Shown here: piece after piece, positions 7,647 to 18,044 of the stretch
Numbering within the stretch: the first letter of the stretch is position 1
Layout: every line of letters begins with the position of its first letter
Virus record (IMG/VR): IMGVR_UViG_3300044609_000032
Location: 1 to 26,399 of that record
Reading direction: 5' to 3' (one strand)
Source: a virus
Length of the DNA stretch: 26,399 nt
The notes under the pieces: generated by a model
Seen by the model: the letters and a program-made list of their open reading frames with translations, nothing else
What the model was told of the DNA's origin: nothing
Database searches by the model: none
Translations under genes and position numbers: made by a program

Positions 7647-8075
7647 ATGCTAACGAGAAATAAAGATGTTTCAATAAGACAGTTAAAGGAGTTATACTAT
7701 GCCCAACGTAATACCCACGTTAAATTGCACGAAATGATGCACCAGTTGGGATTGTTAGGCATAGAAGATAACGAGCCTTTAGGTGCGGATATAGGTGCGA
7801 GAAGCATCGTTAAATTAGTAGAGGAAGTATTTGAGTGCGATATATCAAGAAGGGATAGGTCTTTAAGAACTACCTTTGGTCGCAAGGCTGCCGCTTATTT
7901 ACTTAGAAGGTATACTAAATTGAACCTCAAAGAGATAAGCGCATACACTGGCACTAAAGACCATACTACCGCAATTCATAACATTAAACAAGCAAATAAC
8001 CTAATTGACACGGAAGATTGGTTTAAAGACAAAATGAAAAGAATTTGTCAAAAACTTGAAATCATCGAAAATTAG
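7647..8075 (+). CDS. DnaA domain-IV-like DNA-binding protein without ATPase domain
   Basis: The 142-residue product has a helical N-terminal half (about 1-65) and a C-terminal half that resembles DnaA domain IV. RKAAAYLLRRYTKLNLKEIS (79-98) matches the family's R-x-x-A-YL-R-T-SL-x-EI segment. TGTKDHTTAIHNI (101-113) matches the DnaA signature (G-R/K-DHTTV-H) that contacts the DnaA box. The AAA+ ATPase domain III is absent. It probably binds an origin or operator, perhaps working with host DnaA or the replication protein downstream. A structured RNA follows directly. Confidence 0.78.
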   Translation: MLTRNKDVSIRQLKELYYAQRNTHVKLHEMMHQLGLLGIEDNEPLGADIGARSIVKLVEEVFECDISRRDRSLRTTFGRKAAAYLLRRYTKLNLKEISAYTGTKDHTTAIHNIKQANNLIDTEDWFKDKMKRICQKLEIIEN

Positions 8076-8085
8076 TGTATATTCG
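8056..8085 (+). promoter_or_regulatory. Candidate promoter for the structured RNA
   Basis: TTG at 8056-8058 and TATATTCG at 8078-8085 are 19 bases apart. The second element has one mismatch to TAnnTTTG. It overlaps the end of the DnaA-like gene. Transcription would begin near 8090, shortly before the paired region at 8099, giving a transcript of about 100 nt ending in the T-run at 8182-8189. Confidence 0.4.
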
Positions 8086-8098
8086 CAACATAAATAAA

Positions 8099-8189
8099 AA
8101 ATACATTAGCGGAAGTCGAGCCGATAATGTGTTTAGTGGTTAAATAATAGCCCCTGATAGCTCGACTCTATTGGGGGCTTCTTTTTTTT
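8099..8189 (+). ncRNA. Two-hairpin structured RNA with complementary (kissing) loops
   Basis: Hairpin 1 pairs 8099-8108 with 8125-8134 and 8110-8112 with 8121-8123 (13 pairs, one G-A mismatch, one G-T). Its loop at 8113-8120 is AAGTCGAG. Hairpin 2 pairs 8149-8160 with 8168-8179 (12 continuous pairs, including two G-T). Its 7-base loop at 8161-8167 is CTCGACT. The second loop is perfectly complementary to AGTCGAG at 8114-8120 in the first, so the loops can kiss within one molecule or between two. A 14-base linker joins the hairpins, and eight T follow. It could be a free small RNA or an attenuator leader for the replication gene at 8190. I do not recognise it as a named RNA family. Confidence 0.7.
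8149..8189 (+). terminator. Intrinsic terminator abutting the replication gene
   Basis: A 12-bp stem with the GC-rich base AGCCCC/GGGGCT is followed by TC and eight T (8182-8189). This is a textbook rho-independent terminator and the strongest in the window. The next base, 8190, is the A of the ATG of the replication gene, so transcripts must read through the hairpin to express it. Its loop takes part in the kissing interaction. Confidence 0.82.
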
Positions 8190-8915
8190 ATGGCAAAAGA
8201 CCCTGCATTCCTATTTTATAGCAGCGACTTCCTAAATGGAGTAGCTGACTTAACAATGGAAGAGAGAGGACAATTTATTACTCTCTTATGTTTACAACAC
8301 CAAAAAGGTACACTTACAGACAAAACCATTAGGTTATCTTTAGGTTCGGTTTCGGTTGATGTTTTGAGCAAGTTTTCAAAAGACAAAGACGGAAATTTTT
8401 TCAATGAACGCCTAAGCGAAGAGATTGAAAAACGTATTCAATTTACTGAAAGCCGCAGAAACAATGGCTCTAAGGGTGGTAGACCTAAAAATAACACAAA
8501 ACCATTAGGTTTAGCTAAACATAACCTTATGGAAGATGTAAATGAAAATGAAAATGAAGATATAATTATAAATAAAAGTAAGTGTACTTTTGAAGAAGTT
8601 TATGAATATATGGCTTTTAGGATTGGAACAGAAGTAGCAAAGATTGAAGCCGAAAAGTTTGTAAATTACTATACAAGCAATGGGTGGAAAGTAGGTAAAA
8701 ACCCTATGAAAAGTTGGACACACGCAGTAAATAATTGGATAACAAACGCTAAACAATATGCAAAAGGAACTACAAACAATAAGCCAAAACTTAATAAGCA
8801 CGAACTCGACAACCTTGCCAATTACAACTATATCCACTCTACTTCCTATGGAGCAGGAGATTATGCAAAGCTTTTCGGGGGAGAGGGTTCGCAATCTGAA
8901 CTCTACCATATTTAA
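8190..8915 (+). CDS. Replisome organiser / replication initiation-like protein
   Basis: The 241-residue product begins MAKDPAFLFYSSDFLNGVAD, followed by LTMEERGQFITLLCLQHQKG. This is the winged-helix start typical of DUF1376-like and replication-initiator proteins of phages, and it supports the ATG at 8190. A basic linker, SRRNNGSKGGRPKNN (about 88-102), leads to an acidic low-complexity stretch and a C-terminal domain, FVNYYTSNGWKVGKNPMKSW (about 151-170), of the DnaD/DnaT or phage O type. Such proteins bind the origin and load helicase. The position after the DnaA-like gene and the structured RNA supports this. Confidence 0.75.
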   Translation: MAKDPAFLFYSSDFLNGVADLTMEERGQFITLLCLQHQKGTLTDKTIRLSLGSVSVDVLSKFSKDKDGNFFNERLSEEIEKRIQFTESRRNNGSKGGRPKNNTKPLGLAKHNLMEDVNENENEDIIINKSKCTFEEVYEYMAFRIGTEVAKIEAEKFVNYYTSNGWKVGKNPMKSWTHAVNNWITNAKQYAKGTTNNKPKLNKHELDNLANYNYIHSTSYGAGDYAKLFGGEGSQSELYHI

Positions 8916-9516
8916 ACAAAACCTTGTTTATTTAATGCAGCTTGTAGGAATTAACAATCCTGGAGAAGTTAAGTTAGCAATCTTAGAGGATTGGATAAGA
9001 AACGAGTATGGAGGCTTTACAATAAATGAAGTTAAAGTAGCGTTTAAGCAAATGGTAGCTAATGACTTTATAGACCACTACCAGAACTTTAGTCCTGCAT
9101 ACTTTAGTCAAGTTATGGATAGGTACAAGAAAAAAGCAAACGAAGTAAGAAAAATGATGCCACAAGAACGAGTTGAAGCAATACCGCACTTAACCGATTT
9201 AGAGATAATCGATTACTCTTACCAAGAATATAAGCTTTTGGAAAATAGAACTTTTGATAGGTTGTTTAACCCATTAAGTGTATTTACAAAGCTTAATAGT
9301 TCAGGCATTAAGAAGTGGACAAAAGAAGATGGAGCGGTTGCTAAAAAGAAACTTATGGAGATTATTACCTACAAAGCTAATAAAATGGACATAATAAGCG
9401 CAAAGCAGTACCGAGACGAATGGACTGAACAATGGCTTAAGAACCAAGCAAGAGCCGTAGCCGTAGCTTTATTTTTTGATTTGCAAATTGCTAATAATAA
9501 AACTTCATTCAAATGA
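8863..9516 (+). CDS. Replication-associated protein, possible helicase-loader partner
   Basis: The frame is open from 8758 to 9516. I choose the ATG at 8863, with AGGAG just upstream and 53 bases of overlap with the previous gene; 8848 and 8935 are alternatives, while 8758 would give a 158-base overlap and a low-complexity start. From 8863 the product has 217 residues and is mostly helical. It contains GEVKLAILEDWIRNEYGGFT and NEVKVAFKQMVAN, then FSPAYFSQVMDRYKKK. I recall similar proteins after replication initiators in Bacteroidota phages, with no assigned function. No Walker motif is present, so it is not itself a helicase. Confidence 0.6.
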   Translation: MQSFSGERVRNLNSTIFKQNLVYLMQLVGINNPGEVKLAILEDWIRNEYGGFTINEVKVAFKQMVANDFIDHYQNFSPAYFSQVMDRYKKKANEVRKMMPQERVEAIPHLTDLEIIDYSYQEYKLLENRTFDRLFNPLSVFTKLNSSGIKKWTKEDGAVAKKKLMEIITYKANKMDIISAKQYRDEWTEQWLKNQARAVAVALFFDLQIANNKTSFK

Positions 9517-10508
9517 GACACGGAAGTTTATTTAGCGGAATAGGTGGCTTTGATCTAGCAGCAGAATGGTGCGGTTGGGAAAACGTATTTCACTGCGAAT
9601 GGAACACCTTTGGACAAAAAGTATTAAAACATCACTTCCCAAATTCAATAAGTTACAATGACATCACAAAAACAGATTTCACTATTCACAGAGGAACTAT
9701 CGACATCATTAGTGGAGGCTTCCCTTGCCAACCCTACTCAAATGCAGGAAAGCGACTTGGCAAAGAAGATGAGAGACACCTCTGGCCAGAGATGCTTAGA
9801 GCAATTAGGGAAATTCAGCCGAGTTGGGTTGTGGGCGAGAACGTTCGCGGACTTACTAATTGGAACGGGGGATTGGTATTCGACGAGGTGCAAACTGAGT
9901 TGGAAGCTGAAGGCTACGAAGTCCTCGCGTTTTTACTTCCAGCTTGTTCCGTTAACGCACCACACCGAAGAGACCGAATATGGTTCGTGGCTTTTAAAGA
10001 CACCAACAACAATGGACGGGGAAGTAAGCAGTGGCAAGAAGAAACCAATAAGCGGAAATTCAGGAACTCTTGCTCAGGAAATAATGAGCTCGTACAAACC
10101 GACAATGAAAAAGTTGGGACTATTACCTACTCCGACAACTATGGATCAAACAAATGCAACAGCAACAATGAAGTCAACACAAGTCAAGGAAGGGTCTATG
10201 AGGTCAGTAACACTATCGAGAGCATTAGTAATGGGTTTAATACCAACACCACTTGCATCGGATTGCGGAGAGAAAGTAACAGGATTGGAAACACAGGACT
10301 CACTTTCAAAAAGAGTAAGAGAAATAACTGGCAAACCTTCCCAACTCAATCCGCTATTTGTAGAGGAAATGATGGGTTTCCCGGAGAACTGGACAACATT
10401 ACCTTTTCTAAATGGAGAAAAGAAAGCATCAAAGCCTACGGAAACGCAATAGTTCCACAGGTTGCTTATCAGATATTTAAAAGTATTTGTCAATATCAAG
10501 AACTTTAG
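9513..10508 (+). CDS. DNA (cytosine-5) methyltransferase
   Basis: The 331-residue enzyme transfers a methyl group from SAM to C5 of cytosine. Motif I is FSGIGGFD (7-14), motif IV GGFPCQPYS with catalytic C72, motif VI GENV (108-111), motif VIII RRDRIW (152-157) and motif X GNAIVPQ (310-316). The region between motifs VIII and X (about 160-290), where the target-recognition domain lies, is unusually rich in Asn, Ser and Lys. It is also the region overlapped by a second ORF in the +1 frame. The ATG overlaps the previous stop (ATGA). It probably protects phage DNA against host restriction. No cognate restriction enzyme is seen. Confidence 0.9.
   Translation: MRHGSLFSGIGGFDLAAEWCGWENVFHCEWNTFGQKVLKHHFPNSISYNDITKTDFTIHRGTIDIISGGFPCQPYSNAGKRLGKEDERHLWPEMLRAIREIQPSWVVGENVRGLTNWNGGLVFDEVQTELEAEGYEVLAFLLPACSVNAPHRRDRIWFVAFKDTNNNGRGSKQWQEETNKRKFRNSCSGNNELVQTDNEKVGTITYSDNYGSNKCNSNNEVNTSQGRVYEVSNTIESISNGFNTNTTCIGLRRESNRIGNTGLTFKKSKRNNWQTFPTQSAICRGNDGFPGELDNITFSKWRKESIKAYGNAIVPQVAYQIFKSICQYQEL
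9658..10452 (+). CDS. Second ORF inside the methyltransferase gene, +1 frame
   Basis: A 264-codon frame starts with ATG and lies entirely within the methyltransferase gene. It encodes protein-like text: an N-terminal SLFTEELSTSLVEASLA, a middle FSRVGLWARTFADLLIGTGD with KLSWKLKATKSSRFYFQLVP, repeated LLPTPTTMD / LIPTPLASD elements, and the end LNPLFVEEMMGFPENWTTLP. I recall these motifs from phage proteins found beside or fused to C5 methyltransferases, so I think the frame is expressed. The length is very unlikely by chance in AT-rich DNA. Its role is unknown; help with target recognition or with the methyltransferase is possible. How it is translated (internal start or reinitiation) cannot be seen. 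Confidence 0.6.
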   Translation: MTSQKQISLFTEELSTSLVEASLANPTQMQESDLAKKMRDTSGQRCLEQLGKFSRVGLWARTFADLLIGTGDWYSTRCKLSWKLKATKSSRFYFQLVPLTHHTEETEYGSWLLKTPTTMDGEVSSGKKKPISGNSGTLAQEIMSSYKPTMKKLGLLPTPTTMDQTNATATMKSTQVKEGSMRSVTLSRALVMGLIPTPLASDCGEKVTGLETQDSLSKRVREITGKPSQLNPLFVEEMMGFPENWTTLPFLNGEKKASKPTETQ

Positions 10509-17481: not shown

Positions 17482-17538
17482 TTACCGCTTATCCTTGATA
17501 TTTACCGCTCATCACAATTTTAAAAAAAAGTTTACCCA

Positions 17539-17572
17539 TTTGATTGTTGAATGTTAAAAGGTTGTAGATTTA
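17539..17572 (+). promoter_or_regulatory. Candidate promoter after the terminase gene
   Basis: TTTG at 17539-17542 and TAGATTTA at 17565-17572 are 22 bases apart. The second element has one mismatch to TAnnTTTG. It lies in a 119-base gap after terL, and the first ATG is at 17601. The stretch 17482-17538 shows nothing else apart from AT-rich sequence. Confidence 0.45.
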
Positions 17573-17600
17573 CATACCAATTAACCATAAACACATTTTT

Positions 17601-17780
17601 ATGAAAAACTTAATTTACAAATCTTCTTATTTATCAAAGCTTAATTCAAATAACCAAAGACATTGGGTTATAGATTATTACAATGGTAGATTTACTATGA
17701 GTGTGCCATTTTATATGATGCCATTTAGTATTAAAAAAGAAATGGTAAAACAAGGCTTTAATGCAAATAGAAACAAATAA
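17601..17780 (+). CDS. Small hypothetical protein, 59 aa
   Basis: A short gene starts 28 bases after the promoter-like element. The product begins MKNLIYKSSYLSKLNSNNQR and continues HWVIDYYNGRFTMSVPFYMM, PFSIKKEMVKQGFNANRNK. It is basic, with an aromatic beta-like middle and no membrane helix. It lacks known motifs. The frame is clean from ATG to TAA, and a 55-base gap follows that holds a 5-bp hairpin (GTGCG/CGCAC). It is probably coding because of its promoter context, but the evidence is modest. Confidence 0.5.
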   Translation: MKNLIYKSSYLSKLNSNNQRHWVIDYYNGRFTMSVPFYMMPFSIKKEMVKQGFNANRNK

Positions 17781-17835
17781 CATAAGCAGGGGTGCGACTG
17801 AATAACGCACAATTCAACTACCTAAACTAAACACA

Positions 17836-17922
17836 ATGAAAAAAGAAACCGCACAACTTTTAGCCGTATTTTTAGTAGCTTGTTACCTTATAGGGCAACT
17901 TCAAGACATCTACTCAAAATGA
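17836..17922 (+). CDS. Tiny single-helix membrane peptide, 28 aa
   Basis: ATG at 17836 and TGA at 17920-17922 overlap the next start by ATGA. The product is MKKETAQLLAVFLVACYLIG followed by QLQDIYSK: a short basic N-terminus, one hydrophobic helix (about 7-20) and a polar end. The coupled overlap and typical small-membrane-peptide layout support it. Function unknown. Confidence 0.4.
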   Translation: MKKETAQLLAVFLVACYLIGQLQDIYSK

Positions 17923-18044
17923 TTTACGCTATATGCCTTCTGCTAATTGCAACAGGTTTTGTAATGGCAGCATTAACTGACTACACAATTAAAAACTATG
18001 ACCCAAAGCACAAAAGATTACATAGACAAATATTACGCAAGTGA
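17919..18044 (+). CDS. Tiny membrane protein, 41 aa
   Basis: ATG at 17919 overlaps the previous stop; the TGA is at 18042-18044. The product starts MIYAICLLLIATGFVMAALT, a hydrophobic helix or uncleaved signal, followed by a basic tail rich in Lys, Arg and His (about 25-41). It overlaps the next gene by 47 bases in another frame. The pair of tiny membrane proteins could act as an inner-membrane accessory, but nothing specific is recognisable. Confidence 0.4.
   Translation: MIYAICLLLIATGFVMAALTDYTIKNYDPKHKRLHRQILRK

Follow-up and report, generated by a model that had tools for sequence, protein, structure and literature searches.

The window analysed here is a virus DNA stretch of 26,399 bases (IMGVR_UViG_3300044609_000032, positions 1 to 26,399). 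It contains an RNA of about 100 nt on the + strand (8090-8189), predicted from the fold and from the covariation and the usage of G-U pairs in relatives. The RNA consists of a 5' hairpin, a linker, a terminator hairpin and a T-run, and the loops of its two hairpins almost certainly pair with each other. The RNA lies directly in front of a replication-initiator-like gene, and the chances seem about even that this kissing-loop terminator attenuates the replication operon in cis. With the same reservation, it may represent a new class of phage leader RNA, namely a kissing-loop terminator that heads a replication operon.

The whole element is held in a 114-base gap between two genes on the + strand. 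The upstream gene (7647-8075) encodes a protein with a DnaA C-terminal DNA-binding domain (Bac_DnaA_C, PF08299, E 3e-11), and the downstream gene (8190-8915) encodes a replication-initiator or primosomal-like protein with a weakly matching DUF1376-like N-terminal domain and similarity to primosomal proteins in PHROG; this agrees with the first-pass annotation, which had described a DnaA-like DNA-binding gene and a replication-organiser gene. The minimum free energy and centroid structures of 8090-8189 both show two hairpins (-30.1 kcal/mol, z = -3.6), and none of 200 shuffles of this interval was as stable as the native sequence.

Hairpin 1 (P1, 8099-8134, + strand) is composed of 10 bp, a conserved 1x1 mismatch and a further 2-3 bp that close the kissing loop. 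In the window, these are 8099-8108/8125-8134 (10 bp), G8109.A8124 and 8110-8112/8121-8123 (3 bp), and the loop at 8113-8120 is AAGTCGAG. The kissing strand of loop 1, AGTCGAG (8114-8120, + strand), is perfectly complementary over 7 nt to that of loop 2, CTCGACT (8161-8167, + strand), and the C at 8121 can give the kissing helix an eighth pair. Hairpin 2 (P3, 8149-8179, + strand) is a terminator hairpin of 12 bp (8149-8160/8168-8179), the 7-nt loop of which (8161-8167) is used completely in kissing, and it is followed by a T8 tract (8182-8189, + strand) that touches the ATG of the gene at 8190-8915. Between the hairpins is a 14-nt linker (8135-8148, + strand), whose core, AGTGGTTAA, is invariant in the alignment of the closest relatives (family I, see below). 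Folding and inspection of the sequence bear out all of the first-pass measurements of hairpins, loops, 7-nt complementarity, linker and T8 tract.

According to a simple A-form estimate, a distance of about 75-87 A has to be bridged along the stacked hairpins, and even the shortest linker has a reach of about 96 A; pairing within one molecule is therefore geometrically allowed, a linker of 14-15 nt being long enough to bridge the stacked hairpins. Within the linker, GGTT (8138-8141) can pair with AGCC (8149-8152), which is possibly the counterpart of a middle mini-hairpin, GGTT..AACC, found in a second family. This pairing comprises just 4 bp. No strong alternative (antiterminated) fold of the leader was found, which speaks against attenuation. 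As a separate observation, the linker core AGTGGTTAA of family I (window 8135-8148) has exactly the sequence of a common tRNA D-loop, and in several elements loop 2 resembles a T-loop (G-TTCGNNN-C). We rejected a tRNA reading of the linker, as neither the Rfam tRNA model nor ARAGORN sees a tRNA.

To estimate chance expectation, we used a scanner for pairs of stable hairpins whose loops are complementary over 7 nt and which are accompanied by a T-run. On both strands of the window, the single match was the element at 8090-8189, with a stem score of 26+28 = 54. In 3,100 random 26.4-kb sequences of the same dinucleotide composition, searched with a slightly more permissive version of the scanner, 33 matches scored at least 34, two at least 40 and none at least 46. 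In a scan of 3.2 Mb of loci, all other matches in viral loci but one, in locus L534, belonged to the element and its relatives, some of them on the reverse strand, and the remaining singleton matches lay in bacterial contigs. The reading that these are two ordinary hairpins, one of them a terminator, whose loops match by accident has nothing in its favour except that terminators are common; it is opposed by the random expectation, by paired loop changes and by independent families, and since the homologues already refute it, its probability is negligible.

The relatives of family I were gathered through the neighbouring proteins and the linker sequence, that is, blind to the loops. In 77 of the 80 loci found via the DnaA-domain gene, the RNA stands directly behind that gene, and the other three loci end at or near the gene. 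Perfect 7-nt complementarity between the loops was observed in 136 of the 138 family I elements in which both loops are readable. Six loop types occur, AGTCGAG, AGTCCAG, CTGCGAA, CTACGAA, GTACGAA and GAGCGAA, each with its complement (for example, AGTCCAG/CTGGACT and CTGCGAA/TTCGCAG). When distinct elements are counted, the loops match in 89 of 91, compared with a mean of 17 and a maximum of 30 after permutation. In particular, one stem-1 background (ATTAACG ... CGATAA) carries all six loop types, each with the matching loop 2, so that the loops change together inside a constant frame; this is the strongest single fact for the loop contact.

The kissing helix was also evaluated column by column in 28 distinct family I sequences, where five of its seven pairs are changed on both sides and 99% of the cells are paired, a proportion that falls to 26-33% when the kissing cells are slid by 1-3 columns. 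No G-U pairs are used in this helix. In the stem of hairpin 1, three pairs are changed on both sides and 98.8% of the cells are paired; in the two stems together, 70 of the 588 cells are G-U on the + strand and 10 are unpaired. On the opposite strand, each of these G-U pairs would become an A-C mismatch, which identifies the + strand RNA as the structured one. Loop 1 comprises 10 nt in most family I relatives (two unpaired and eight pairing), hairpin 2 has a family mean energy of -15.1 kcal/mol, and in 81 of 95 distinct contexts no base separates the T-run from the ATG. In the most divergent member, locus L352, the stem is shorter and re-paired and the linker is altered, but the loop match is retained. 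Covarying loop changes, whose absence from homologues the first-pass annotation had named as fatal to its proposal, are clearly present here, and those in the other families likewise support an interaction of the loops within one transcript.

The same annotation had pointed out that the palindrome TCGA in each loop could lead to dimers. This suggestion did not survive the comparison, since in relatives TCGA is replaced by TCCA/TGGA and others and the match between loop 1 and loop 2 is kept. Oligomers could also arise from pairing of loop 1 with the loop 2 of a different copy, giving dimers or chains, in principle like phi29 pRNA or the GOLLD/ROOL cages. Such head-to-tail pairing is possible in every loop type, the two loops being mutually complementary, and the kissing loops of the phage-encoded GOLLD and ROOL RNAs do build RNA-only multimers (PMC12286853). 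We nevertheless consider an oligomerising RNA improbable: both loops are located in one short molecule, the linker permits pairing in cis, which should win at low concentration, and self-pairing of the palindrome is not conserved.

Only two loop mismatches, each of a single base, are present among the 138 elements, and these may be natural test cases or assembly chimeras. One, in locus L044 (CTACGAA/TTCGCAG, locus position 2940), is a one-base step between two matched types, and the other, in L199 (AGTCGAG/CTGGACT, locus position 190), is a mix of two types. Mapping the loop type on a tree of the upstream gene required 57 changes, compared with a mean of 68 and a minimum of 63 after shuffling. 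Thus, recombination has heavily reassorted RNA types and neighbour genes, and the tree cannot reliably count independent loop changes. This frequent exchange may be driven by homing-endonuclease-like genes that have entered exactly between the T-run and the replication gene, with HNH-like genes directly behind the T-run in L088, L094, L108, L133, L141, L165, L166, L173, L185, L197 and L199, and GIY-YIG genes in L083, L095, L129 and L187. The replication gene of family I swaps its N-terminal domain (DUF1376-like, MAKRF type or Lin1244_N) under an unchanged RNA, as seen at 8190-8915 in the window, at 3872-4660 in L168 and at 1728-2537 in L352; no link between loop type and replication-domain type was seen by eye.

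More distant relatives of the replication protein have leaders without obvious sequence similarity that follow the same plan: promoter, hairpin, terminator with a complementary loop, T-run and ATG. These leaders provide about 18 loop pairs beyond those of family I. Note that the members of families II and III were recognised by the loop match, so that their 100% complementarity is partly by construction. Family II precedes genes of the DUF4373/Lin1244_N type and has the loops GTAGGAG, GTCGGAG, GTGAGAG, GTGGTAG, GTCGTAG, GTCGAGA and GTTGTGA with their complements. Its hairpin 1 has a 10-nt loop (two unpaired and eight pairing, as in most of family I) and one mismatch inside the stem, and its middle mini-hairpin, GGTT..AACC, is weak, with 81% of cells paired. 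In 20 sequences of family II, 19 of 31 pairs are changed on both sides, including four of the eight pairs of the kissing helix, and 95% of the cells are paired as against 33-45% when slid. The family II covariance model gives a weak match to the window element (22 bits, E 0.02).

Family III precedes MAKRFTDT-type genes, and its T-run also abuts the ATG. Its loops are ATGCGAC, GTCGCAT, GTCGGAT, GTAGGAT, GTCGTTT and GTTGCAG, and one pair was found with the loops swapped between the hairpins (ATGCGAC/GTCGCAT and GTCGCAT/ATGCGAC). Since the MAFFT alignment of this family misplaced the loops, no column statistics were drawn from it. Single cases are L447 (TATAGGG), L464 (AACACAC), L465 (AACCAGCGAC), L463 (TGCGGG, 6 nt) and L672 (GTGGAT, 6 nt, read by eye). 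As a fairer measure, members were clustered by overall similarity of the upstream DNA; the loop pair was then found at a loose threshold in 46 of 50, 21 of 21 and 23 of 23 members of three clusters, compared with 14% of shuffled upstreams. Other upstream clusters are without a loop pair, several of them having an inserted gene beside the start codon, and in L466/L467 and L591 the element was found further upstream.

By family conservation and consensus, the promoter-like element noticed in the first pass is a predicted promoter of a different type from sigma70. It consists of a -33-like TTG (8056-8058) and a -7 box, TATATTCG (8078-8085), on the + strand (8056-8085 in total) with a spacer of 19 bp, and corresponds to the flavobacterial sigmaA type. 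The TAnnTTTG -7 box of Bacteroidota sigmaA promoters stands just 5' of the transcript in all 138 family I elements, as TATATTTG in 89 and as TATATTCG in 49, and in family III the variation falls mostly at the nn of TAnnTTTG. In flavobacteria, this box is located at -12 to -5 (PMC9723704), which places the predicted transcription start at about 8090, the first base of the interval originally annotated. Some family II promoters (e.g., L469 and L473) read TAnnTTGY (TATATTGT, TATATTGC), a box that belongs to the alternative-sigma motif SM5 of Flavobacterium psychrophilum (PMC9723704). In a pattern scan of the window, the next TTG-N17-22-TAnnTT[TC]G promoter occurs only at 10487; hence, the genes at 8190-10508 seem to depend on the promoter at 8056-8085 or on upstream transcription, both of which pass through the terminator.

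The layout of an intrinsic terminator, that is, a GC-rich hairpin followed by a U-rich tract, is found at 8149-8179 plus 8182-8189 and is kept in all families, so hairpin 2 and the T8 tract form a predicted intrinsic terminator. In the mechanism that we propose, RNA polymerase would start near 8090 and most transcripts would stop at the T-run, giving an RNA of about 100 nt. The loop-loop helix would lock the 5' hairpin onto the emerging terminator hairpin and so fix the efficiency of termination, which in turn would set how often polymerase reads through into the replication gene and those that follow it. An early occupant of either loop, such as a second copy of this RNA, a protein of phage or host, or some other RNA, would shift this balance. 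The pairing is assumed to be intramolecular, and pairing between two copies is also conceivable. In Bacteroidota, translation initiation is favoured by A at -3 and -6 and hindered by structure at -20 to +20 (PMC6847099). An ATG placed behind a hairpin and U8, as that of 8190-8915 is, would therefore be expected to be poorly translated, which suits a tightly set gene.

Gene context bears on whether such a mechanism acts on the replication operon. Every family has a replication gene downstream of the RNA, at times with one small gene inserted in between; in named phages, relatives of 8190-8915 whose N-terminal domain has been swapped (Lin1244_N/DUF4373) carry the annotation replication initiation protein. 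The upstream neighbours differ (DnaA_C, ParB-like and several unknown), the DnaA_C gene being upstream of the RNA throughout family I and absent in families II and III. Promoter and terminator are retained in every family; together with the loop match and the downstream replication gene they are constant across families, and the RNA and loop sequences vary. This constancy points to a cis function for the replication operon or to an RNA role that belongs to replication. In cultured phages with a related replication protein (LBR48, EF62phi, Porphyromonas phage 005 and Flavobacterium phage 1/32), the gaps are at most 61 nt and such a leader is absent, so the replication gene does not need it, which counts against the mechanism.

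The first-pass interpretation is partly supported: a small RNA or attenuator beside the replication gene, with a promoter and a terminator, agrees with the observations, and this RNA may set initiation or copy number through an effect of kissing on termination. Promoter, hairpins and terminator are equally what would be expected of a free-standing small RNA gene that lies tight against its neighbour, a complete unit whose product of about 100 nt would act in trans on phage or host targets; kissing would then only shape or protect the RNA, and the replication gene would merely be next to it. The linker, invariant in family I as a targeting or protein-binding stretch would be, agrees with this reading, and the small genes and homing endonucleases that separate the RNA from the replication gene at some loci favour it and count against a cis attenuator. 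On the other hand, the association with the replication gene persists between phage groups whose flanks and RNA sequences are unrelated, the linker has no second match on either strand of the window when up to two mismatches are allowed, and families II and III are without the family I linker sequence, apart from GGTT..AACC in II. On balance, we regard a free-standing small RNA as rather unlikely.

The terminated RNA carries both complementary loops and could, as it accumulates, bind the loops of the nascent leader in trans and alter termination before the replication gene. This sense-only copy sensor is an unlikely variant: if it were true, replication would be fed back by the number of phage genomes without an antisense RNA, and the loop types would be compatibility groups between co-infecting phages, which would explain the many orthogonal loop pairs. 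A further reading makes the transcript itself a participant in replication initiation (as primer, in an R-loop or in strand opening), like ColE1 RNAII, instead of a regulator of a gene. Its position between a DnaA-domain gene and a replication-initiator gene, and its retention beside replication genes in unrelated phages, speak for such a role. We find it doubtful, because DnaA boxes (TTWTNCACA) are absent from the window, neither iterons nor a turn in GC skew occur around the element, a U8 end makes the transcript a poor primer, and the DnaA-domain gene is absent beside families II and III. A DNA-level origin was rejected for the window by the same lack of DnaA boxes, iterons and a skew turn.

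The leader can be compared with several known systems. The first-pass comparison with ColE1 RNAI/RNAII holds for the fully complementary 7-nt loops (the whole of loop 2 and 7 of the 8-10 nt of loop 1) beside replication functions. It is an analogy only: the ColE1 loops are on two antisense transcripts, whereas here both are on one sense strand, the two stems lack mutual complementarity, we found no antisense partner, and loop 1 exceeds the size of a 7-nt loop that pairs completely. Inspection by eye revealed no evident antisense promoter beside the element. In attenuators of the pT181 type, loop-loop contacts with a countertranscript decide termination; the leader described here likewise has an intrinsic terminator ahead of a replication-initiator gene, but the complementary loop is in the leader itself. 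In the replication leaders of I-complex plasmids, a pseudoknot activates translation and an antisense RNA competes with it. An upstream hairpin loop that pairs with a downstream segment of the same transcript, before a replication-initiator gene, is common to those leaders, where the pairing sets expression of that gene, and the present one; here, however, a transcription terminator supplies the partner loop, we found no antisense RNA and the sequences are unrelated. An intramolecular pseudoknot plus RNAI is attributed to IncI-alpha ColIb-P9 repZ and IncB repA in work cited in PMC10724649.

At the gathering score, Rfam 15 gave no match to the window or to 10 relatives. The nearest model, Chlorobi-RRM RNA (RF01697), likewise describes a hairpin and a terminator before a gene, but the match (27.6 bits versus a gathering score of 45) covers only linker and terminator, and that RNA has no kissing loops. 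GOLLD and ROOL are phage-encoded structured RNAs with conserved kissing loops (PMC12286853); unlike the window RNA, they are several hundred nt long, make their contacts between molecules and are not leaders of replication genes. We found no description in the open-access literature of a terminator loop that kisses an upstream hairpin of the same transcript.

Other readings and searches were also considered. A metabolite riboswitch was rejected because families I, II and III share the architecture without a sequence core and every helix varies. A leader peptide, MCLVVK (8128 onward), was rejected because ATGTGTTTAGTGGTTAAATAA loses its stop in L049, L052, L061 and L066 and is ATGTTTTAG in L352. 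A 16-nt linker pattern, used to look for bacterial or prophage homologues, occurred in 101 stretches in bacterial genome contigs, which is about chance level, and the best covariance-model match among these contigs, L202, proved to be a terminator with no relation to the element. A search with model R2 gave no match in 298 Flavobacteriales genomes, a set that had no positive control, and L616 and L617 are ordinary terminators. The phages of INPHARED contain no DNA match, and a gut phage match, L381, is without the leader.

Plasmids are known to control replication genes through loop-loop contacts, in which the partner is typically an antisense RNA; here the terminator's own loop almost certainly pairs with a hairpin of the same transcript. 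Several unrelated Bacteroidota phage groups appear to keep such a self-kissing terminator right before the replication initiator, in about two dozen sequence variants. This natural mutagenesis series allows one to test whether tertiary contacts of a terminator hairpin tune termination, how lytic phages time the making of their replication proteins, and whether co-infecting phages are insulated from one another by loop type. In addition, RNA regulators could be built with the matched loop pairs as orthogonal parts.

Two further observations concern other noncoding stretches. In the ORF list of the window, a 516-nt stretch behind the terminase gene (17482-17997) is without a + strand ORF of 60 aa. 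Related replication genes in L435 (about 1380-1500), L547 (about 1365-1500) and L603 (about 850-1001) have other, apparently pseudoknotted leaders. In L435, for example, GCTTAGTCCG/CGGACTAAGC enclose CCTACGC, with GCGTAGG behind. These three leaders also sit between a TATATT[TC]G promoter and the ATG.
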